Shown here one piece after another: positions 1,322 to 15,260 of a DNA stretch of 32,579 nt. The stretch comes from an uncultured bacterium (GTDB lineage Bacteria; Acidobacteriota; Thermoanaerobaculia; Thermoanaerobaculales; Thermoanaerobaculaceae), in contig CALEVZ010000022.1 of NCBI GenBank assembly GCA_937924755.1, positions 1 to 32,579 on the forward strand, written 5' to 3'. The number at the start of each line of letters is the position of its first letter. The stretch's first letter is position 1. The translations under genes and the position numbers were made by a program. The notes under the pieces are model-generated. The model ran no database searches. It was given only the letters and a program-made list of their open reading frames with translations, and was not told where the DNA came from.

Positions 1322-3178
1322 TTAGTTGTCCGAGAAGGTCGCCCAGCCGGTGGACACCCAGTCGTTACCCGGGCACACACCCCCGATGCAGTCCACGAAG
1401 GTGTCGAAGAAGCCGTCGTCCGGCGGCGTCTTGACGTAGCTGATGTCCAGCGCCGGCGAACCGGGCAGCGGCATGACGTTGGGGTTGAGGAACTTGTGGT
1501 GCGCCCAGGAACCGAACGCCAGCATGGGGTCGACGTTGCGGTTGAATTTCATGGTTTCGAAGAGGAACTGCCTGGTCTGCGCAGCGCGATCGCGGGAGTT
1601 GGGGAACTTGGCGTCGGAAAAGTCGCCGTACAGAATCGAGTTGTCGAACACCAGCTCGCCCGGCGGGATGCGGTTGAAGGTGGCGTCGTCGCGCAGCGTC
1701 ACCGGCGCGTGACGGGCCCCGTAAATGATGACGTTGTGCACCTTGCCGGCGGTGCCGCGACGCAGCACCCAGCCGTAGGCGCCCAGCGTCTGGTTGGCCG
1801 TGCCGATGGCCGTGAGATTGTAGACTTGCGGGTTCGAGAGGGGGGTGAGGTCGAAGTTCTGCGGGTGGCCGTCGGACTCGCCGGCGAAGTTCGAGTCGTT
1901 CTCGTCGTTGATCTCGGTCTTGATCACGACCACGTACTGCACCTTCCCCTGCCAGCCGAGGTCCCAGTCGAGCCCGTCGTCGGCGTTGGACGTCAAGAGC
2001 AGGTACTTGGCGTTGACGGTGCCGCCAAAGAACTCGATGGAGTCGTCCTTGTTGAAGTGGGCTTGGATGTACTCGATGACCGTGCGGTCGCCCACACCGC
2101 CCAGCGTCAAGGCGTTGATCTCCTGGTTCGCCTCGATTTCGAACCCGCCGAACTCCAGACGGACGTAGCGAAGCACGCCGGAGTTGTCGTGGGGGTCGGT
2201 GCCGCCAAAGGCATACTGCGGCTGAGAGGGTAAGCCCTCGAGGTAGCTCTGGCCGCCCGGCTCGTTGACCGGCGCCCGGCCGAAGAGCACCAGGCCGCCC
2301 CAGTCCCGCTGCGCCCGCGATCCGACCTTCTTGGAGGAGGTGAACACGATGGGGCGCATCGCCGTGCCGCTGGCCTGAATCTTGGCGCCCTTGGTGATGA
2401 ACAGCGTCGCCCGGTTGTCAGCGCCCAGAATCACGGTGCCGGGCTCGATGGTCAGCACCGCGGGCTCGCGCACCAGCACAAAATCGCTTAACACATAGCG
2501 CTTGCTTGCGGTCCAAGTGGTCGACTGGGAAATCTCCCCGGCCACCCGTTCCTGCGCCGTCACGAACGAGTACATGGCGTTCGATTTAGAGATCACCCGC
2601 CGGCCCGCGGCGTCGCGGATTTCGATGACATACTGGTATAGACCGGGCTGAGAGGGGGCGGTCATCGACGGTCCGAGGGCGCCGTCGATCCCCCAGCTCA
2701 GAATGGCCGGGTCGGCGGCCGAACCGAAGAGGACAAAGTCGTTCAGCGCCGGCAGATTGACCGGGACCGGCGATCCCCCGGGCACGCCGAAGAGATCGGC
2801 GACCACCCCGACGTTCTGCAAGCCGCCGCCGGGCACACTGTAGTAGCGCTTGACGCCGCTCACCCGGTCCTGCCAGTACATATACAACGTTACCGGGGTG
2901 CTCCAGTTGTTCGGATTGATGGTGACGCGCAACTGCACCTTTTCACCCGGCACAAACGCGTAGAAGTTGGTCTCGAGCAACACCACGGGCCAGTTGCTGG
3001 CGGTCGTGGCGGCGGCCGCCGCTTGCTCGATCTCCGCTTCCGTCATGATTGCCGGTTCGACCCACGCGCGCGCATCCGGCATACCACCTTCGCGGGGTTC
3101 GATCATGTGGCGCGGCGGGGCGGCAAAGGCAGCCGCGGACACCAAGGCCACCAACCCGAGGACTACGTTCTTTCGCAT
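1322..3178 (-). CDS. Secreted right-handed beta-helix protein paired with a TonB receptor
   Basis: The product is 618 residues with a signal peptide (cleavage near residue 19, AFA|APP). Residues ~20-220 form an N-terminal beta domain. From ~225 to 540 there is a parallel beta-helix with the family's characteristic strings: [40 protein letters not shown] and a DDSIEFFGG segment. The C-terminus ends in the typical [10 protein letters not shown] tail. This family is commonly encoded next to TonB-dependent receptors, as here, and is probably exposed on the cell surface or bound to the receptor. GGAGG precedes the ATG. It lies 77 bp downstream of the receptor gene and 26 bp upstream of the CHRD gene, in the same direction. 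The ligand is not known. Confidence 0.82.
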
Positions 3179-3255: not shown

Positions 3256-6057
3256 TTAAAAAACTGTGTAACCAACAGACAGGCCGAATCCGCGGCCGTT
3301 GGCGTACTTGCGATGGATCCTGCCACCCTGCGTAAAGGCCCGCTCGGCGTCGAGCAGGTTGGTGCCGGAAAGCTTTAGTTCGAGGCCGGGGAAGAGGCGG
3401 TCCAGGGACTGTGAGACGACCAGATCAAGGACGCCGAAATCGTCCTCATAGACGTCAGGCAAGCCGTAGGCGCCGACCTCGTAGATGCGCCGGCCGGTAA
3501 AGTTGTACATGGCCCTCACCATCGTTCCCCAGGTGGGCTGGAAGTACTGCAGCGCAAGGTTGCCCACGTGCTTCGATTGGCCCTCGAGGGGACGCGAGGT
3601 GTTGGTGATGACCGACAGCTGCCTCTCACCGACTTCGACCGAGGCATTGACGTAGGCGTAGTTCAGGTTCACCGTCCAGCGATTCAACACCGGCGAGACC
3701 ACCGCCAACGATTGCCGGTACTCCACCTCGGCGCCGGTCAGGGTGGCGCCGTCGGCGTTGGTGAACGAGCTTCGCAGCTCGGTGGTTGGTTGCACGATGC
3801 GCTCGATGGGGTTGGTGAGCTTTTTGTAGAAGGTCGAGAAGGCGATCACCTCACCCGGGTTCGGGAAGACCTCCCAGCGCAGGTCCACGGCGTCGATCAA
3901 GGCCTGCTTGAGGTCGGGATTACCCGCAACCGACCTGCCGCCGGTGACCTCCACGAACGCGAACGGCGACAGCTCCCGGAACTCGGGGCGATTGACGGTG
4001 CGGCTGGCGGCCAGGCGCAGGTTGGTATCGGGGCGCAGCTGGTACACCAGGTTGAGGGCCGGCAGCCAGTCACGGTTGAGGTCCCGTGCCACCGCCAACT
4101 GACCCGGAGCGAAGGGGTTGTAGGTGCGCACCTCGAGGTCCGACTTCTCGTAGCGCGCACCCCCGACAAAACGCCACTTGCCCCAGCTCGCATCCAACAT
4201 GGTGAAGGCCGCATCGACGTCGTGGAAGGCGTCGTAGGCGTCGTTGACGCCGGTGATTTCGCGGATCTCGAACGCGCCGGGCCTGATATTCTCCACCGTG
4301 TACAGTTGCTCGGGGGGCAGGCTCAGGTCGAACTGACTCTGGTTGGACAGCACGAAACGCAGCCGGCGCGCGTCGAATTCGCGCTCCCGGCGGTTCGTGG
4401 TGAGGCCGACCTTCACGGAACCGTAGCGCGTCGGCGACGCGGAGTAGAACGTGCTCCAGCTGATCCCGCCGCCGCGAATTTGGTCCTCGAGGTCGAAGAA
4501 CTCGAGTTTCCCGCTTTCGGCCAGGCCCGGCTGCAACTTGTAATAACCAGGCGAGACCTCGCCGTAAAGGTTCTCCCGCAGATTCTGCTCCGTCCCAGCC
4601 GTCGAGGAGGTGAGGAACCATTCGAGGGAGCTCCCCATCCACAGCCCCGAGAAGAAGTGCTCACCGGAAAGCTTGCTGGTCAAGAGCTCCTCTCGCTGGT
4701 AGCGGGAGCGAAAATCGCGCACGTTCTGACCCGCGTTGTTCATGTATCCCTGGTACTGACGACTCTCCGACACGGCGTCGCGCGAGAACAGCGAGGCCAG
4801 AGACACGCGATGCCCGTCGGCCAGGCGCAGGGCCAACTGGCCCAGGAGCCCGTTGCGGGCCTTTTCGGCATCGGTCACCATGTGATAGTCGTTGCGCGGT
4901 ACCAGCACGTTCCCAGAGTCGAGACCGAAGTAGACATGGTCCGACTCGACGCGCGAGAAGCCGCGCGAGGCGACCCCCGAGAGCACCACCCCCAGGCGAC
5001 CGAAGGTGTTGCCGTAGGTGAGGCTCAAATTGCTGTTGGGCGAAGCGGATGAGATCTTTTCTCCGGTCCACGGCCCGACGAACAACCGGCCAACCGCCTG
5101 CAGCTGCTCAGGGGTCAAGCCATCGGGGTTGACGATGCTTTGCGGCAGCAGGCGCTGGGTAGGCAGGCTGGCCGGCTTTCCCTGCCCCCCTTTGCCGGTC
5201 CAACTGAGGCCCCCGGCGTAACGCGAGAAATCGTTGCCCGTGGTCGTGGAGTCCCAACCACCACCCAACGTGACCTTGAGAGATGCCGTAGCGGGAAAAT
5301 CGAGGGTGGACATTTCCACCGCCCCGGCGCCGAAGTCACCCGGCTTGTCCGGGGTGTACGTCTTGGCGATGGTGATGGTGTCGAGAAGCTTCGAGGGGAA
5401 GAGATCGAGAGGTACGACGCGCTTGTCGGCCTCGGTGGAGGGCAGCGCCGCCCCGTTCAGCATGGTGTTGCTGTAGCGGTCACCGAGGCCCCGCACGTAC
5501 ACGTACTTGGAGTCCACCACGGTGATCCCGGTGAGGCGCTCCACCACCGCGGCGGCGTCGGCGTCGGGAGTGCGCGCGATCTCCTCCCGGGAGATCGCGT
5601 CGCTCACCACCGCCGCCTGTCGGCGCTGATCCAACACGGCCACCTCACTGGACCGCGGCGCCTCGGCGGTCACCTCGACGGTCTCCCGCAGGGTTGCCAG
5701 CGCCAGCCGGAACTCCAGGGTCAGGCGCTGGTTCACCACCAGGGTAAGGGTGGTTTCCGAGGGCTGGAAGCCATCCAGCTCGGCGCGCAGCGTATACGCC
5801 CCCGGGTTCAGCCCGTCGAAACGGAAACTGCCGCTGCTATCGGCGTAGGTCACCAGCGGTTCCCCGAGAAACTCGGCGGAGAGGGTTATCGTGACCCCCG
5901 GCAGAATGCCGCCGTCGCTGTCCTTCACCGTCCCGGCGATGATCCCCGCCGCCCACGCTTGGGTCGCCAACAGCATGACGGTGCCCAGCGCCGCCAGAAT
6001 TCGAACCCGTCTACACCTGACATCGGACCTCGACGAAATCCCATGTTTCATTTTCAT
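3256..6057 (-). CDS. TonB-dependent receptor with carboxypeptidase-regulatory-like domain
   Basis: The product is an outer-membrane ligand-gated transporter of about 931-933 residues. It has a signal peptide (~1-36), a carboxypeptidase-regulatory-like beta domain (~38-120, with GTVKDSDGGILPGVTITL), a segment ETVEVTAEAP, a plug domain (~150-260, with VYVRGLGDRYSNTMLNGAALPS) and a 22-strand-type barrel ending in phenylalanine (VGYTVF). GGAGG abuts the first ATG (6057) but is 6 nt from the second in-frame ATG at 6051, so 6051 is the more likely start. Upstream lies a PHO-box-like repeat array. The gene follows a PstS-like gene and precedes beta-helix and CHRD genes. The substrate is inferred to be a phosphorus compound from context only; the barrel itself does not show this. 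Confidence 0.92.
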   Translation of the reverse strand: MKMKHGISSRSDVRCRRVRILAALGTVMLLATQAWAAGIIAGTVKDSDGGILPGVTITLSAEFLGEPLVTYADSSGSFRFDGLNPGAYTLRAELDGFQPSETTLTLVVNQRLTLEFRLALATLRETVEVTAEAPRSSEVAVLDQRRQAAVVSDAISREEIARTPDADAAAVVERLTGITVVDSKYVYVRGLGDRYSNTMLNGAALPSTEADKRVVPLDLFPSKLLDTITIAKTYTPDKPGDFGAGAVEMSTLDFPATASLKVTLGGGWDSTTTGNDFSRYAGGLSWTGKGGQGKPASLPTQRLLPQSIVNPDGLTPEQLQAVGRLFVGPWTGEKISSASPNSNLSLTYGNTFGRLGVVLSGVASRGFSRVESDHVYFGLDSGNVLVPRNDYHMVTDAEKARNGLLGQLALRLADGHRVSLASLFSRDAVSESRQYQGYMNNAGQNVRDFRSRYQREELLTSKLSGEHFFSGLWMGSSLEWFLTSSTAGTEQNLRENLYGEVSPGYYKLQPGLAESGKLEFFDLEDQIRGGGISWSTFYSASPTRYGSVKVGLTTNRREREFDARRLRFVLSNQSQFDLSLPPEQLYTVENIRPGAFEIREITGVNDAYDAFHDVDAAFTMLDASWGKWRFVGGARYEKSDLEVRTYNPFAPGQLAVARDLNRDWLPALNLVYQLRPDTNLRLAASRTVNRPEFRELSPFAFVEVTGGRSVAGNPDLKQALIDAVDLRWEVFPNPGEVIAFSTFYKKLTNPIERIVQPTTELRSSFTNADGATLTGAEVEYRQSLAVVSPVLNRWTVNLNYAYVNASVEVGERQLSVITNTSRPLEGQSKHVGNLALQYFQPTWGTMVRAMYNFTGRRIYEVGAYGLPDVYEDDFGVLDLVVSQSLDRLFPGLELKLSGTNLLDAERAFTQGGRIHRKYANGRGFGLSVGYTVF

Positions 6058-6099
6058 CCTCCAGGCGTGTACCGCCGGCGGGGAGAGTGGCCGGGCGAT

Positions 6100-6132
6100 G
6101 TGAAATTCGGGTTAAGGTGATGTGAAGATCAT
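6100..6132 (-). promoter_or_regulatory. PHO-box-like operator, three 11-bp direct repeats
   Basis: On the plus strand, 11-mers starting at 6100, 6111 and 6122 begin GTGAAA, GTTAAG and GTGAAG; a weaker TGGAAA unit follows at 6133. Read towards the minus-strand receptor gene these are CTTCAC, CTTAAC and TTTCAC. An 11-bp period is the spacing used by PhoB/PhoP-type (OmpR-family) regulators, and the hexamer resembles actinobacterial PHO boxes (GTTCAC). The array ends about 42-48 bp before the receptor start codon. Confidence 0.6.
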
Positions 6133-6180: not shown

Positions 6181-7023
6181 TCAGTCCTCGAACAGAGGAA
6201 TCAGGCCAGCCTCGCCCACCACCCGCTGGCCGGCGGGGGACAAGGAGAAATCCACGAACCGCCTGGCCAGCCCCTCGGGAGGTCCAACGGTGATAAAGTA
6301 AAGGTATCGCGCCAGCGGGTACGCGCCGGAGCGTGCCGTCGCCACCGAGGGCGAAACCCCATCGAGGGCCACCACGGCCACCCCGCCCCGGCCGAAGACC
6401 ATCCCGCCGTAGCCGATGGCCGTCTCGTCGGCCGCCACCAGCTCGATGACTTCCTCGTTGGTGGCGATCACCGTGGCGAAGGGGGCGTACTCCTCGCCGT
6501 CCAGCGCCACTGCGCGGAAGAATCCGTGGGTCCCCGAGGAGGGGGGGCGGATGAGAACCTCGATGGTGCCACCCGAACCCCCTACCTTCTCCCACTGGCG
6601 AATGCGTCCAGTGAAGATGCCCTTAAGCTGCAGCATGGTCAGCTCGCGCACCGGGTTGTCCGGATGAACGAACACCTCCAGGGCCTCCCGCGCCACCTGC
6701 ACCCGCACCCCCAGGCGGCCGTGGCGACGGTAGAGGCGCTCCGCTTCCGCGGCGGTCAGGGGACGGGAAGAGGCGCACAGGTCGGCGCGTCCCTCGATCA
6801 GCGCGGCGATCCCGGCCGTGCTCCCTCCCCCCTCCACCCGCACCCGAATACCGGGATTAACCCCCATGAACGCATTTGCCAACGCCCTGGTGAGGGGCAA
6901 CATGGTATCCGATCCGGCCAGCCGCAACTCCCCCCGGCCGGTGGTGGCGCAGCCCGCCAGCGCCGCCACGACCAAGGCCAGCGAGAGCTCCCCTGGCCAC
7001 CAGCGTCTAGCGGCGCCGCGCAC
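6181..7023 (-). CDS. PstS-like phosphate-binding lipoprotein
   Basis: The product is a 280-residue ABC-type substrate-binding protein of the phosphate (PstS/PBP-like) family. There is a lipoprotein signal with lipobox LAGC (Cys25). Phosphate-contact regions typical of the family are visible: AGSDTM near residue 35, GGGSTAGI near 66, and RPPSSGTHGFF near 160. The hinge pattern LKGIFTGRIRQWEKVGG is diagnostic. No pstCAB transporter genes lie beside it, so it may be a phosphate scavenger or sensor feeding a distant transporter. Its start overlaps the end of the M28 peptidase gene by 17 bp, suggesting translational coupling. The downstream TonB receptor has its own PHO-box-like site. Confidence 0.87.
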   Translation of the reverse strand: MRGAARRWWPGELSLALVVAALAGCATTGRGELRLAGSDTMLPLTRALANAFMGVNPGIRVRVEGGGSTAGIAALIEGRADLCASSRPLTAAEAERLYRRHGRLGVRVQVAREALEVFVHPDNPVRELTMLQLKGIFTGRIRQWEKVGGSGGTIEVLIRPPSSGTHGFFRAVALDGEEYAPFATVIATNEEVIELVAADETAIGYGGMVFGRGGVAVVALDGVSPSVATARSGAYPLARYLYFITVGPPEGLARRFVDFSLSPAGQRVVGEAGLIPLFED

Positions 7024-9995: not shown

Positions 9996-11432
9996 TCATG
10001 CGCTCGAAGCGTCCCAGAGCTCCCGCGGATAGTCTCGGTACATGGTGCGGTACGCCCTGGCGTAGAGCCGACTCGCCATGGTCACCCGCAGCAGCTCCAG
10101 CGGCGGGAGGGGACGGCGGGCGGCGCGCAGCGGCGTCTTCGCCACTCCCAGGGCGACCAGATCGGCGTACAGCTCGCAGAATCGGCGCAGCGGCAGGCGC
10201 GTAGGGGTCAGCGGGTGCATGCAGTCGTGCAGGTCGTAGGGGTTCGGCACCCAGATGCGCGGCTTCATGGCCTCGTAATCCGGAGTGCCAGGGGAGGGGG
10301 TGCACACCGTGAATGAGCACTGCACCGGGGGTAGCTCCGCCAGGTAGCGCCGTAGCCGCTCGAAATCGGCCTCGCTGTACTCGGGCAGGAGCATGAACGC
10401 CGCGTGGACAGCCACCCCTATGCCCCGCAGCAGATCCAGCGCCCGCTCGTTCATCGCCACCGTGCCGCCCTTGGCCACTTGGCGCAGCTCCTCGTCGCGG
10501 GTGAACTCGAAACCTATGAACACCCCGTCGAGGCCGATCTGTCGCCAGCGCCGCAGCAGCTCCGGGGAGCGCAGCACGGTGGTGGAGCGGACCCAGGCGA
10601 AGTAACGCTTCTTCACCCCCCGGCGCTCCAGCTCGTCGGCCAGGGCCGCGGCAAACTCCTCGTCGATGAAGTTCTCGTCGTCGGAAAAGTAGACGTGGCG
10701 GGCGGGAAGGCTGGCGATTTCGGCCGCCACCGCCTCCACCGGGCGCGGCAGGTGCTGGCCGCCGCACAAAAACGGCACGATGCAGAAGCTGCACTTCATG
10801 CGGCACCCGAAGGAGGTCCGCACCTGCGCCACCGGCGGCAGGATGCTGCGCCACGGTTGGGGGTTCTCCTCCAGCCAGACCGACCGGTAGGCGCGCCAGT
10901 CCCAAAGATCCCGACGGGGCCGCGGCAGCATCGCCGGATCCGGAAAGCGCGGCCACTGCCCGCCACGCCCGTCATCGTGACCGGGGACCACCACGTTGGC
11001 GATCCCGGTCAAGGGCTCCCCGGCGGCGATGCGATCAACCACCAGGCGGAAAGGTTCGCACCCCTCGCCGCGCACCACCGCATCCACGTGCTCCGTGGCC
11101 AGGTCCTCGGGAGCGACGGTGGCGTGGTGGCCGCCCACCACGACTCGGGTCGAGGGGAGGGCGGTCCTGGTCAGGCGTGCCAGCTCCTTGGTGGTCGTTG
11201 CCTCATGACTATACCCAGAGAGCCCGACCACCTGCGGACGGAACCGTCGGAGCGCGGTGGAAAAGGCCCGCCCGGGGTCGCGGGCCAGCCGCAGATCGGC
11301 CACGCGCACCTGGTGTCGGCCGTCGAGCGCTGCCGCCAGGTAGCCCAGCTCCAGTGGCTCCAGCAGTTGAAACCGCTGCAATCCGAGAATTGGCCCCAAC
11401 CGGGCCTGCGGCTTGACCAGCAGCACTCTCAT
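9996..11432 (-). CDS. B12-binding-domain radical SAM protein, HpnR-like
   Basis: The product has 478 residues. The N-terminal cobalamin-binding-like domain (~1-140) contains VGLSGYSHE and VVVGGHHATVAPED. The radical SAM cluster motif is C210-x3-C214-x2-C217. The C-terminal half has the family pattern YFSDDENF ... GVFIGFE ... TPSPGTPDYE ... LHDCMHPLTPTRLP, closest in my memory to the hopanoid C-3 methylase HpnR group. Such enzymes methylate unactivated carbons, often in polycyclic or isoprenoid lipids. No squalene-hopene cyclase gene is in the window, so hopanoid as substrate is only a possibility. It sits between a GT21 gene and an oxidoreductase gene. A run of ten G residues lies just upstream of its start. 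Confidence 0.82.
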   Translation of the reverse strand: MRVLLVKPQARLGPILGLQRFQLLEPLELGYLAAALDGRHQVRVADLRLARDPGRAFSTALRRFRPQVVGLSGYSHEATTTKELARLTRTALPSTRVVVGGHHATVAPEDLATEHVDAVVRGEGCEPFRLVVDRIAAGEPLTGIANVVVPGHDDGRGGQWPRFPDPAMLPRPRRDLWDWRAYRSVWLEENPQPWRSILPPVAQVRTSFGCRMKCSFCIVPFLCGGQHLPRPVEAVAAEIASLPARHVYFSDDENFIDEEFAAALADELERRGVKKRYFAWVRSTTVLRSPELLRRWRQIGLDGVFIGFEFTRDEELRQVAKGGTVAMNERALDLLRGIGVAVHAAFMLLPEYSEADFERLRRYLAELPPVQCSFTVCTPSPGTPDYEAMKPRIWVPNPYDLHDCMHPLTPTRLPLRRFCELYADLVALGVAKTPLRAARRPLPPLELLRVTMASRLYARAYRTMYRDYPRELWDASSA

Positions 11433-11444
11433 GCCTCGATGGTA

Positions 11445-11454
11445 CCCCCCCCCC
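11445..11454. repeat. Ten-base C homopolymer upstream of the radical SAM gene
   Basis: Ten consecutive C residues (ten G on the coding strand) lie 12-22 bp before the radical SAM start codon, downstream of a possible TACAAT -10 element (complement of 11471-11476). Tracts of this length are prone to slippage and can change promoter or leader spacing. Confidence 0.6.
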
Positions 11455-11546
11455 GGCCTGCGTGTGTTCCATTGTAGCCCCGCCGGCGGCGTGCCGGCGC
11501 CTGAGGGGAGGTTGCGGGGCGCCGGCCGGGGCGAGGCGCCGGGGGG

Positions 11547-12725
11547 TCAGGAACTTTCGGAGGCCTCCTGCAGCTGTGGCAGTGCCTCGAGCTCGCCGAT
11601 GGCCAGCAGGCGAGTGCGGGGCCCGATGCGCAGGGCGTTGCCCCGCCAGCTCACCGTACGGGCAAGCAGGGCCACCGGCCACACCGCCGCCGCCAGCATG
11701 TCAGCCAGCAACGTCAGGGCTGCCCGCCCCCCCAGCGAGCGCCGCACCCCCAGGGACCGTTCCGCCAGGGTGTTGATCGCCACCAAGGTCGCCCACGCCA
11801 GCGCCAGCAAGGCCAGGGAGACCCCTCCCCCCAGAGCGGCGGCGCCGACGGCACCCACCGCCAGCGGGTTGAGCAGCAACTCACCGGCGAACCCGGCCGG
11901 GGCAATGCGGCGGCGGATCTTGCCCCAGCGCAGGTAGCGGGCGGCCACCTGGCGCAACGACGGCCCCCCAGTGACGTTGTCGATGGGTCGGGAAGACAAG
12001 GCGATGCGGTGCCCTCGACGGGCCACCTCCTGCCCGCACACCTGATCCTCGGCCAGGAACTGGGCCAGGAACTCGAACCCACCGATCTGGCGCAGGGTGC
12101 TGCGGCGCAGGAGCATGGACTTGCCGACCACGCACACGCCGGCGAACAGGCGGTGCACGGCGGCCACTCCCCCCATCACGAAGGTGTTGAGAAGCAGGGC
12201 GTCCACCTTTCCCCCCAACGACGTGGAGGCGCATCCGCGGATCGGCGAGGAGACCAGCTCCACCCCCGGTTGCTGCAGGTGGTCCACCAGGTCGGCCAGG
12301 TAGTCGGGCGCGACGCGCACGTTGGAGTCGGAGATGAGCACGCACTCGTGCCTGGCGTGGCGCAGAAGGTTGGCCAGGTTGGCCACCTTGGGGTTGGGCC
12401 CCACCTGGCGCGGATCGGCGACCACCACGCTCGGCACCTGGGGGTACGCCGCGGCCACCCGGCGGGCGACCTCCAGGGCGGGATCGTCGGCGCTGTGGGC
12501 GCCGATGATCACCTCGAAGGTGGGGTAACGCTGGGCGAAGACGCTGCGCAGGTTGGCCTCAAGATCGGCATCGAGGCCCTTGACCGGCTTGAGAATGCTG
12601 ACGGCCGGGAGTTCCGTCGCCGGGGTCGGCGGAGGGGTGCGCAGGTGCCTGCGCTGGGCCACCACCATGAGAGCGCGAGCGCCCAATCCCACTGCCAGGA
12701 GGGCGCCGAGAATCAGTTCACCCAT
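11547..12725 (-). CDS. GT21 ceramide glucosyltransferase-like enzyme (HpnI-like)
   Basis: The product has 392 residues counted from ATG 12725; a longer frame upstream encodes only low-complexity basic sequence. An N-terminal membrane segment (~4-24) is followed by a GT-A domain with VSILKPVKG (~43-50), DSNVR (D133), AED (E226-D227) and the (Q/R)xxRW signature RYLRW (263-267), the hallmark of GT21/ceramide glucosyltransferase-type processive enzymes. Two or three further C-terminal membrane segments follow. It should glycosylate a lipid at the inner membrane: ceramide, diacylglycerol or a hopanoid. The upstream region holds six 11-bp PHO-box-like repeats ending right at the start codon, pointing to phosphate control. 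Confidence 0.83.
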   Translation of the reverse strand: MGELILGALLAVGLGARALMVVAQRRHLRTPPPTPATELPAVSILKPVKGLDADLEANLRSVFAQRYPTFEVIIGAHSADDPALEVARRVAAAYPQVPSVVVADPRQVGPNPKVANLANLLRHARHECVLISDSNVRVAPDYLADLVDHLQQPGVELVSSPIRGCASTSLGGKVDALLLNTFVMGGVAAVHRLFAGVCVVGKSMLLRRSTLRQIGGFEFLAQFLAEDQVCGQEVARRGHRIALSSRPIDNVTGGPSLRQVAARYLRWGKIRRRIAPAGFAGELLLNPLAVGAVGAAALGGGVSLALLALAWATLVAINTLAERSLGVRRSLGGRAALTLLADMLAAAVWPVALLARTVSWRGNALRIGPRTRLLAIGELEALPQLQEASESS

Positions 12726-12791
12726 GTGAAGACGGTGCGCGCAGAGTGTGAAGGTACCGCGAAGAAACCGCGAAGCCAGCGTGAAGCTCCG
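12726..12791 (-). promoter_or_regulatory. PHO-box-like operator: six tandem 11-bp units between two glycosyltransferase genes
   Basis: Plus-strand 11-mers starting at 12726, 12737, 12748, 12759, 12770 and 12781 begin GTGAAG, GCGCGC, GTGAAG, GCGAAG, GCGAAG and GTGAAG. Five of six keep the hexamer GYGAAG in strict 11-bp phase. On the minus strand they read CTTCAC/CTTCGC towards the GT21 gene, the same orientation as at 6100-6132 and 15217-15260. The array fills the region between the GT21 start and the divergent MGDG-synthase-like gene. Multi-unit 11-bp arrays are the known binding pattern of PhoB/PhoP-type response regulators. Confidence 0.72.
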
Positions 12792-12802: not shown

Positions 12803-12877
12803 CCCGGCCCCCTTTTTCCCCTCGGCGGCATGCCACCTGGCATGAGGCGAAGGGTGCTAGGCTTGCTGGGAGGGGTG

Positions 12878-14194
12878 ATGCGGGCCCAACTTGCCGGCGC
12901 TGTGGACCGACCGGGCGTGGTAGTGGCTGCGGTGGACATGGGGTATGGCCACCTGCGCGCCGCCCACGCCCTCGCCTCTGCTCTCCATCAGGAGGTGGTG
13001 GAAGTCGACCGCGAGCCCTTTGCCTCCCCGGCCGAAAGCAGGCTCTGGCAGCATTTGCGCCGCGCCTACACGGTCCTTTCTCGGGCCTCCCAGGCACCCC
13101 TGGTGGGCGGGCCGCTGGGCCGCCTCCTGGACGGCATCACCCAGATCCCCCACCTCTATCCGTACCGCGACCTGTCCTCCCCGACGCTCGCAGTGGAGAT
13201 CCTCCATTGGCTCATCCAACGTGGGCTGGGCCACAATCTGGTGCGCCACCTCAAACGCAGCGGGGACTGCCTGCTGACCACCTTTTTCGCCCCGGCCCTG
13301 GCCGCCGCCGCCGCCGGAGTGCCGCGGGTCGTGTGCGTGGTGACCGACAGCGACGTCAACCGGGTGTGGGCCCCCCGCCAACCCCGCGGCACCCCCATCG
13401 AGTACTGCGTCCCCAGCGAACGGGCCCTGCGCCGTCTGCGCGCCTACGGGGTGCCCGGGAGCTTGATCCACGTCACCGGCTTTCCCCTCCCGCTGGAACT
13501 GACCGGCGGCGAGGATGGGGGCGAACAGCAACGGCGCCTGGCGGCGCGCCTGGTGCGCCTCGACCCGGCGGGGGCCTTTCGCGAACAGTACCGGGAAGAG
13601 CTGGCGCACGTCCTGGGCAGGTTACCCGAGGCAGAGGAGGGGCGTCCCCCTCTCCTGACCTTCGCGGTGGGCGGCGCCGGCGCCCAGGCGCGAATTGCCC
13701 GCTCCATCATTCCCTCGGTGGCGTCCAGTATCCGCGAGGCGCGGCTGCGGCTCGCCCTCGTCGCCGGGGTCCGCGCCGACCTGGCCGAGCAGTTCCAGAG
13801 CTGGGTAGCGGCTGCCGGTCTGCAGGGCGACCGCGACGTGGAGATCCTCTTTGCGCCCTCCCTCCCAGCCTACTTCGAGGCCTTCAACCGGCTCCTGGAG
13901 CGCACCGATATCCTGTGGACCAAGCCTTCGGAGCTGACCTTCTTCGGCGCCGCTGGCCTCGCCCTCATCTTCGCGCCGCCGGTGGGAGCCCACGAGCGCT
14001 TCAACCGGCGCTGGGCGATCCAGCGAGGTGCCGGCCTCAAGCAGTACTCCCCCTCTACCGCCGGGCAGTGGCTGGGCGAGTGGTTGCAGGAGGGGATTCT
14101 CGCTGGCGCTGCCTGGTCCGCCTATCGGCGCTTGCCGCACCGTGGAACGACCAATATCCTGGAAGTTTTGCGCCGGGTCAGATTAAGAGCATGA
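12878..14194 (+). CDS. MGDG synthase/GT28-like glycosyltransferase
   Basis: The product has 438 residues from ATG 12878, chosen because GGGAGGGG lies directly upstream and the fold's first strand begins at once (GVVVAAVDMGYGH, residues 13-25). This MGDG-synthase N-terminal pattern has GYGH where plant and bacterial enzymes have GSGH. The C-terminal GT-B half has a glycine-rich AVGGAGAQ loop and the donor-binding pattern TKPSELTFFGAAGLALIFAPPVGAHE. The family transfers sugar from a UDP-sugar to diacylglycerol or related lipids at the membrane face. It is divergent from the GT21 gene across a PHO-box-like array, suggesting glycolipid synthesis under shared control. The exact sugar and acceptor are unknown. 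Confidence 0.8.
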   Translation: MRAQLAGAVDRPGVVVAAVDMGYGHLRAAHALASALHQEVVEVDREPFASPAESRLWQHLRRAYTVLSRASQAPLVGGPLGRLLDGITQIPHLYPYRDLSSPTLAVEILHWLIQRGLGHNLVRHLKRSGDCLLTTFFAPALAAAAAGVPRVVCVVTDSDVNRVWAPRQPRGTPIEYCVPSERALRRLRAYGVPGSLIHVTGFPLPLELTGGEDGGEQQRRLAARLVRLDPAGAFREQYREELAHVLGRLPEAEEGRPPLLTFAVGGAGAQARIARSIIPSVASSIREARLRLALVAGVRADLAEQFQSWVAAAGLQGDRDVEILFAPSLPAYFEAFNRLLERTDILWTKPSELTFFGAAGLALIFAPPVGAHERFNRRWAIQRGAGLKQYSPSTAGQWLGEWLQEGILAGAAWSAYRRLPHRGTTNILEVLRRVRLRA

Positions 14195-14236: not shown

Positions 14237-15148
14237 TCACGCCACGTCCAGCACCCACTCCTCGACGTGGTGGAGAATGCCCAGGCGGTTCAACGCCAGG
14301 CGGGCCATCTCCACCTGGCCGCGGAAGTGGTTGCGGACGATCCAGGGGGAGAGGGCCAGCGACAGCGCCCCCAGCCACAGCACCCGCATCGTCTGGGTGG
14401 CGCCGGTGGCCAGCCGCCAGTGCTGATCCAGCACCTGCCGGCGCCCCACCAGGTAGTTGTGCAGCAGGAAGGTACGCGGCGTCGAGTGGTGCCCGACGAT
14501 GCGGCTGTTGCCGGCGCGGATACCGGCGAAGAACGAAGCCAGGTCGTGGCACGGCACGGCGGTGTACACCGATCCCACGTTGCCGGTGTGGGTGTCGCTG
14601 CCCCCCTGCATGCCCTTGCCCTCGCGCACGGCCAGTTCCTCGGCCAGTACGTTGAGCAGCTGCATGCGGCCGCCGTTGCGCACCTCCAGCACATCCACCT
14701 GCTTGACCAGCTCCATGAACTCCGGCTCTTCGATGGTAGAGAGGTTCTCGCGGTAGAAGGGGTGATTCCAGGCGCAGTAGAGCCCCTGCTCGCGGCAGTA
14801 GCGCACCACCTCGAAGGCATCGGGTCGCCGCCGCTGCAGCTCCCGGTGCTGCTCCTCATTGTGGCCGTAGACGTTGATGTGCACCGTCAAGCGACTGTGG
14901 GGAAGCTGGGTGGACACCTCCTCGCCGATGATGAAGTCGGACAGATCCCCCCGTCGCGAAAGCAGATCGAGGCAGCCGGCAATGGTGTCGTGATCGGTGA
15001 TGGTGACGTAATCCATCCCCCGCCCCTTGGCCCGGGCGTAGATTTCGTCGGGGGTCTCCCGTGGGCTGAAGGTGACCCCCTTCACACCGGGGATCTGCTC
15101 CACGGAAAAGCACGAGTGCACGTGCATGTCCATCTTCATCAAGGGCAT
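14237..15148 (-). CDS. PHP-domain metal-dependent phosphoesterase
   Basis: The product has 303 residues from ATG 15148, with GGGAGG 9 nt upstream; the longer open frame is discarded. Metal ligands of the PHP superfamily are in place: H9 and H11 (MHVHS), D52-H53-D54 (TDHDT), E76/E77, H129 (NHPFY) and D185/H187 (SDTH). After the PHP domain (~1-240), the C-terminus has a hydrophobic stretch (VLWLGALSLALSPWIV) that may contact membrane. PHP enzymes hydrolyse phosphate esters, including nucleotides and sugar or histidinol phosphates; the substrate here is not evident. A PHO-box-like array lies about 69 bp upstream. The gene ends convergently, 43 bp from the MGDG-synthase-like gene. Confidence 0.83.
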   Translation of the reverse strand: MPLMKMDMHVHSCFSVEQIPGVKGVTFSPRETPDEIYARAKGRGMDYVTITDHDTIAGCLDLLSRRGDLSDFIIGEEVSTQLPHSRLTVHINVYGHNEEQHRELQRRRPDAFEVVRYCREQGLYCAWNHPFYRENLSTIEEPEFMELVKQVDVLEVRNGGRMQLLNVLAEELAVREGKGMQGGSDTHTGNVGSVYTAVPCHDLASFFAGIRAGNSRIVGHHSTPRTFLLHNYLVGRRQVLDQHWRLATGATQTMRVLWLGALSLALSPWIVRNHFRGQVEMARLALNRLGILHHVEEWVLDVA

Positions 15149-15216
15149 GTCCTCTGGCCTCCCGAGGGCGGCGTTCAACGCCGGCCGCCCTTGGGGTGTC
15201 AGAATCGACCCCCGAT

Positions 15217-15260
15217 GTGAGGAAGGCATGCATGGCAATTGAAGCCCCGGTGAAGGCCAC
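15217..15260 (-). promoter_or_regulatory. PHO-box-like operator upstream of the PHP gene
   Basis: Plus-strand 11-mers starting at 15217, 15228, 15239 and 15250 begin GTGAGG, ATGCAT, TTGAAG and GTGAAG: three of four match the GTGAAG hexamer in 11-bp phase. On the minus strand this gives CTTCAC, CTTCAA, (ATGCAT), CCTCAC facing the PHP gene. It is less regular than the other two arrays, and would be unconvincing without them. Confidence 0.5.

Follow-up and report, generated by a model that had tools for sequence, protein, structure and literature searches.

What is the function of the six 11-mers that lie in phase at positions 12726-12791, in the gap between two divergent lipid glycosyltransferase genes of an uncultured member of the Thermoanaerobaculaceae (Acidobacteriota)? 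The stretch of DNA analysed here, referred to as the window, has a length of 32,579 nucleotides and is contig C22 of a 3.35-Mb draft genome of 86 contigs. A preliminary description of the window interpreted the array as a PHO-box-like operator of both genes. The operator reading is supported by the occurrence of the motif at phosphate genes, by conservation and by promoter geometry, and the array is very probably the operator of a PhoB-type promoter that drives one of the two genes, encoding a GT21 glycosyltransferase, in a phosphate-starvation response.

The array and its promoter geometry

Read on the plus strand from 12726, the array consists of the 11-mers GTGAAGACGGT, GCGCGCAGAGT, GTGAAGGTACC, GCGAAGAAACC, GCGAAGCCAGC and GTGAAGCTCCG, five of which start with GYGAAG in exact phase, and it ends flush with the ATG (12725) of the GT21 gene, both as described previously. 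The minus strand gives the better reading: there the units are CTTCAC or CTTCGC and point into the GT21 gene (11547..12725, minus strand). On this strand, four intact in-phase units, CTTCACGCTGG, CTTCGCGGTTT, CTTCGCGGTAC and CTTCACACTCT (12786-12743), form the core of the PHO-box-like operator and are followed by a broken, degenerate fifth unit, GCGCGCACCGT (12742-12732), and by a sixth, in-phase CTTCAC (12726..12731) that touches the start codon. A PHO box is made up of two or more direct repeats of a conserved 6-7-nt core at an 11-bp period, and here four consecutive exact units are present. The array is missing from the Tandem Repeats Finder listing of the window because only 6 of the 11 bases are conserved.

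When 26 boxes are aligned on their final unit, a NANNNT hexamer is found exactly 10 nt past the box in 20 of the 26 sites, while any other offset occurs at most 3 times, placing the boxes in the position of a -35 element, about 10 bp before the -10. In Escherichia coli, PhoB promoters likewise have the box 10 bp before TAN3T/A (PMC1906773). For the GT21 array, the predicted -10 element is CACCGT (12732..12737, minus strand), which lies 10 nt past the last intact unit and within the degenerate fifth unit. The GT21 start codons of the orthologues align and are located 22-23 nt past the box in 10 of 11 genomes (26 nt in the remaining one); in the window, this distance belongs to the fourth unit. 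PhoB boxes of Sinorhizobium meliloti that overlap the -35 lie 22-25 nt before the transcription start (PMC3616915). Given these distances, the start codon is the most likely starting point of GT21 transcripts. A Shine-Dalgarno-like sequence is missing in 9 of the 11 GT21 genes. The pstS genes have longer leaders with such a sequence, and their start is mostly 47-59 nt past the box; three automatically derived pstS distances of 0-2 nt are artefacts, as the real starts can be seen in the sequence. The earlier guess of a leaderless message is thus backed by the conserved geometry of box, -10 and start codon, and the GT21 gene apparently has a conserved PhoB-type promoter with a leaderless message.

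The sixth CTTCAC sits between the predicted -10 and the ATG, and overlaps the putative transcription start region. It was considered as a promoter-proximal box and rejected, because the transcription start would then fall inside the conserved open reading frame. Judged by the geometry in the orthologues, it probably does not belong to the activating box, and the functional box probably consists of units 1-4.

Conservation of the array and the genes that it faces

The array is present before the orthologous GT21 gene in 10 of 10 related genomes, and therefore in 11 of 11 gaps with the window included; the ten relatives have two to four CTTCRC-type 11-bp units in this gap. Relatives from the Thermoanaerobaculaceae keep the GT21 gene together with the divergent GT-B glycosyltransferase gene (12842..14194, plus strand) and, within the family, also with a convergent gene for a metallo-phosphoesterase of the PHP superfamily (14237..15148, minus strand). 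In two GT21/GT-B gaps from other phyla (L124 and L165), which were read by eye, no CTTCRC array was found. In class-level relatives (L078-L083), a PHP-type coding sequence, recognized by eye from its likeness to SDFHRPEHLYAWKTL, directly precedes the GT21 genes, and for this reason the link between PHP and GT21 seems older in the class than the link with GT-B.

The preliminary description assigned the operator to both divergent genes, one of them called MGDG-synthase-like. For GT21 this assignment is supported. For the MGDG-like GT-B gene it finds no support in the orientation of the units, which point towards GT21 in 11 of 11 gaps and towards GT-B in none, with best two-unit scores of 14-22 towards GT21 versus less than 4 towards GT-B. 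The same array may also control the GT-B gene, as only a short gap separates the two divergent genes in every relative, and TTAAC arrays point at the same glycosyltransferase family in two Ignavibacteria loci. A PhoB-bound array that acts as a shared bidirectional operator would be a variant compatible with the PhoB-type promoter, but given that the units face GT21 alone in every gap, it is rather doubtful.

The PHP gene has a box of its own. A weaker PHO-box-like array with the units CTTCAC, CTTCAA, a degenerate unit and CCTCAC is located before this gene (15213..15256, minus strand), with GATTCT (15202-15207) following it in the box alignment. Similar boxes precede the orthologous PHP genes, in search windows that were chosen after a first look. 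As the units of the main array face GT21 only and PHP has its own box, the GT21 and PHP genes appear to be the primary targets. Three arrays had been announced for the window: two are clear (12743-12786 and 6095-6127), and the third, at 15213-15256, exists only in this weaker form. The PHP protein is a predicted phosphoesterase in which the metal-binding motifs (HVH, DH, E, H and DxH) are kept; its structure model, with a pLDDT of 60, is too poor for a fold search.

The motif at phosphate genes and the competing explanations

A scan of the genome for the motif had been suggested as a check, with hits expected at phosphate genes, and this is what was observed. In the same genome, the 11-bp motif is found before pstS of a pst-phoB-phoR cluster that is divergent from a PF01663 phosphodiesterase/phosphatase gene, before the alkaline phosphatase gene phoA, before a PstS-OmpA gene that is itself preceded by a DUF4388/TonB-C gene, and before a gene for an OlsF-like bifunctional acyltransferase (ornithine lipids). 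In the window, the second clear array, CTTCACATCAC CTTAACCCGAA TTTCACATCGC (6095..6127, minus strand), has a -10-like CACTCT (6084-6089) and lies upstream of a gene identified by profile matches as a TonB-dependent receptor (3256..6057, minus strand). Beside it is a gene for a PstS-family phosphate-binding protein (6181..7023, minus strand; TIGR02136, 189 bits with a cut-off of 206.6). Downstream of the receptor, a 618-aa protein (1322-3178, minus strand) has no Pfam or NCBIfam match. In the PstS-OmpA case, a PstS-like domain is fused to an OmpA peptidoglycan-binding domain, and the DUF4388/TonB-C gene lies just upstream with a PHO-like box ahead of it (contig C31, L022:9626-10930 and 10900-11967, minus strand).

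For a position weight matrix, only the equivalent gap in nine relatives (Thermoanaerobaculaceae, Acidobacteriota) was used for training, with the window excluded, and three-unit scores were ranked over 311,000 positions of stretches from the genome under study. Some of these stretches had been fetched for pattern matches, while a location at phosphate genes was not a selection criterion. Ranks 1 and 2 are overlapping registers of the GT21 array, followed by the TonB receptor beside pstS (rank 3), phoA (rank 4) and the PstS-OmpA gene (rank 5).

This association is also observed in the relatives. In seven genomes (G002, G003, G007, G009, G010, G013 and G015), CTTCAC-N5-CTTCAC lies about 60-110 bp ahead of the pstS match. 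In G008 this pair is on the opposite strand, and ATTCAC-N5-CTTCAC is found in the direction of pstS; in G006 the pair differs by one base. Nearly every family relative carries the motif upstream of pstS, and looser forms, CTTAAC and CTTTAC, are found at the order and class level. PhoB and PhoR homologues adjoin the pst genes of the genome under study (L021:5292-5978 and 3586-5295, respectively, on contig C28 and thus outside the window), both with scores below the equivalog cut-offs (PhoB 210 versus 296). The GT21 cluster directly follows phoB-phoR in G015, as recorded for loci L105/L111; a PF01663 phosphatase gene adjoins it in G004 and G014, as recorded for L103/L104, and a PhoR-like gene in G014 and phoB-phoR in G023 are found nearby.

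The OlsF-like gene (L022:4816-6594, minus strand, contig C31) has CTTCGCACGGTCTTCAC and TAAGTT just upstream (site L022:6624-6651, minus strand), and weaker boxes lie at similar positions before OlsF-type genes of relatives (L221, L224 and L227). The position of these sites suggests that ornithine lipids join the same phosphate response. Another candidate site, CTTCACGTCAACTTCAC (contig C14, L098 ~4798-4814, minus strand), lies some 20 bp upstream of an HlyD-type efflux gene, but no clear -10 follows at the usual distance.

Members of the OmpR family share direct repeats of 10-11 bp, and five Trans_reg_C proteins are encoded in this genome. Another regulator of the OmpR/PhoB family, for instance one for envelope stress or for calcium and magnesium, could be the one that uses the array as its operator, with an overlap with phosphate genes that is incidental. 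This explanation is unlikely, since the motif precedes pstS in almost every family relative, as well as phoA, the PstS-OmpA gene and the OlsF-like gene in the genome under study, and since GT21 clusters adjoin phoB-phoR.

A promoter of hopanoid synthesis is more improbable still. The GT21 protein matches PF13506 with 158.9 bits (cut-off 21.7), and its best NCBIfam match is HpnI (TIGR03472), which would work with the B12-binding radical SAM protein encoded at 9996-11432 (minus strand), an HpnR-like neighbor. However, both scores are below the cut-offs (278.8 bits of 310 for HpnI and 195 of 650 for HpnR), the radical SAM gene is not a conserved neighbor, and no squalene-hopene cyclase was found in this genome (3% missing) or in the relatives with GT21 that were searched at family and order level. 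The identification as HpnI was rejected because of the missed cut-off and the absence of the cyclase from these genomes. In the alignment of the orthologues, the catalytic SDSN, ED and RxxRW motifs are invariant or nearly so, in line with a lipid glycosyltransferase of the ceramide-glucosyltransferase/Pgt type.

Low-complexity GC-rich DNA yields short repeats and many short arrays are present in the window, but a functionless chance repetition or coding-related sequence can practically be dismissed, as the array is kept in all the orthologous gaps and none of 400 dinucleotide shuffles of the window's gap reached its score. In leave-one-out scoring, each of the 11 gaps exceeds its dinucleotide shuffles with a p-value of 1/401, the lowest attainable, or close to it; the Fisher combination (p ~7e-15) is overstated, since the orthologues are related and not independent. 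Across the 3.35-Mb genome, the GT21 array is the sole place with three consecutive CTTYRC units and zero mismatches. Fuzzy three-unit arrays (at most 2 mismatches) are uninformative, with 8 in the genome versus 8 for the reversed control pattern, so it is the exact matches, the position and the conservation that make the array significant. Among 100 listed of 110 genome places with CTTCRC pairs, at least 9 have the 11-bp spacing and other spacings that are not multiples of 3 have fewer (1-5 each); spacings at multiples of 3 reflect a codon effect. The exact pairs at C11, C21:26226 and C65 lie in or between unrelated genes and look like chance.

From the array, its conservation, its co-occurrence with phosphate genes and its promoter geometry, a mechanism in which PhoB responds to phosphate can be inferred. 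When phosphate is scarce, PhoR would phosphorylate PhoB, which would bind the CTTCRC units head to tail, stand in for the missing -35 and recruit RNA polymerase to the -10 CACCGT. Transcription would start at the GT21 start codon or no more than 1-2 nt from it, resulting in a leaderless mRNA, and GT21 would make a glycolipid free of phosphorus to take the place of phospholipid. Phosphate and diacylglycerol may be released by the PHP phosphoesterase, whose gene has a separate box, and the role of the divergent GT-B enzyme may be to add a sugar or to prime one.

The GT-B family and comparison with known systems

The GT-B glycosyltransferase belongs to the DUF6937/DUF6938 family (DUF6938 is matched in Pfam, DUF6937 below threshold), and its true start may be at 12878, with GGGAGG as the Shine-Dalgarno sequence. 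Its AlphaFold model (pLDDT 92) has Arabidopsis MGD1 as the best fold match (Z 26.3), with 4wyi as the top match in both Foldseek and VIA-align. MurG is within 1 Z unit of MGD1, so the substrate is not set by the fold alone. In a profile search, a processive diacylglycerol (DAG) glucosyltransferase was matched with an E-value of 1.5e-8 over 85 positions.

More than 560 stretches encode relatives of this enzyme, and 80 loci were kept. Beside the DUF6937/DUF6938 gene, a GT21 gene is found in 18 of the 80 and an MGDG-synthase-type gene in a different 16, never both. In 38 mainly AT-rich loci, in-phase TTAA[CT] arrays were scanned: 15 have an 11-bp period, two a period of 10 and one of 12, with none at 7-9 or 13-15. 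Eight of the 15 lie within 450 bp upstream of a DUF6937/DUF6938 gene, a region that makes up 4% of the sequence, and belong to four Ignavibacteria/Bacteroidetes loci. In L157 and L154, TTAAC arrays face a gene of the phosphate-selective-porin type, followed by PstS-like and permease genes. With such arrays upstream of family genes and facing porin-pstS clusters in two loci, a phosphate link for the family in other phyla is plausible. In L182 and L175, a conserved ORF for a small membrane protein (MDETIRFFIGIALFLAVVTFEWLKNRGSKRA and MDETLRFCIGIALFLAVIAYEWLKERPSRRTS) lies between the TTAAC 11-bp array and the DUF6937/DUF6938 gene, about 220 bp upstream of the latter. There is about an even chance that DUF6937/DUF6938 proteins are widespread, unrecognized phosphate-starvation glycolipid glycosyltransferases that act as partners of a DAG-type glycosyltransferase, which would be GT21 in Acidobacteriota, Myxococcota and Planctomycetota and MGDG-synthase-type in Ignavibacteria, Bacteroidetes and some Spirochaetes.

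In the literature searched, no paper mentions Acidobacteria, Pho regulon and Pho box together. The array yields a PHO-box consensus that can be used in an acidobacterial class on which little work has been done. It is also a clear case of a PhoB-type promoter that is conserved and apparently leaderless, and it suggests a function that can be tested for a family of glycosyltransferases present in many phyla. A further prediction is that glycolipids, and probably ornithine lipids too, take the place of phospholipids in these bacteria.

The PHO boxes of E. coli, S. meliloti, Streptomyces and cyanobacteria are also 11-bp direct repeats of at least two units that replace the -35, 10 nt before the -10; the core differs, being CTTCRC here versus CTGTCAT in E. 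coli, GTTCACC in Streptomyces coelicolor and CTTAACCT in Synechocystis, as does the number of units, with four intact ones at GT21 (PMC4415409, PMC1906773, PMC3616915). The OlsF-like protein resembles OlsF in its fused acyltransferases, with a box and TAAGTT just upstream, but scores 375 bits, below the equivalog cut-off of 620. Similarly, the GT-B enzyme resembles plant MGD1 and bacterial DAG glucosyltransferases (GT28) in its model and profile matches, but Pfam MGDG_synth (PF06925/GT28) does not match it at E 1e-3 and MurG fits nearly as well. By role, the closest known enzyme to GT21 appears to be Pgt, the processive GT21 enzyme of Agrobacterium and Mesorhizobium that makes glycosyl-diacylglycerols in low phosphate and that has a predicted Pho box in Agrobacterium (PMC3972451, PMC8231724). 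Both are GT21 lipid glycosyltransferases behind a PhoB-type box that would supply glycolipids for phospholipids. The acidobacterial enzyme differs in its phylum, in its ties to a PHP phosphoesterase and a DUF6937/DUF6938 GT-B enzyme, in its leaderless geometry and in its CTTCRC box core. A GT21 gene under a Pho box is thus of an already known kind, with Pgt as the rhizobial precedent, and the most novel part is the GT-B family, whose genes neighbor those for GT21 or for true MGDG synthases in different phyla.
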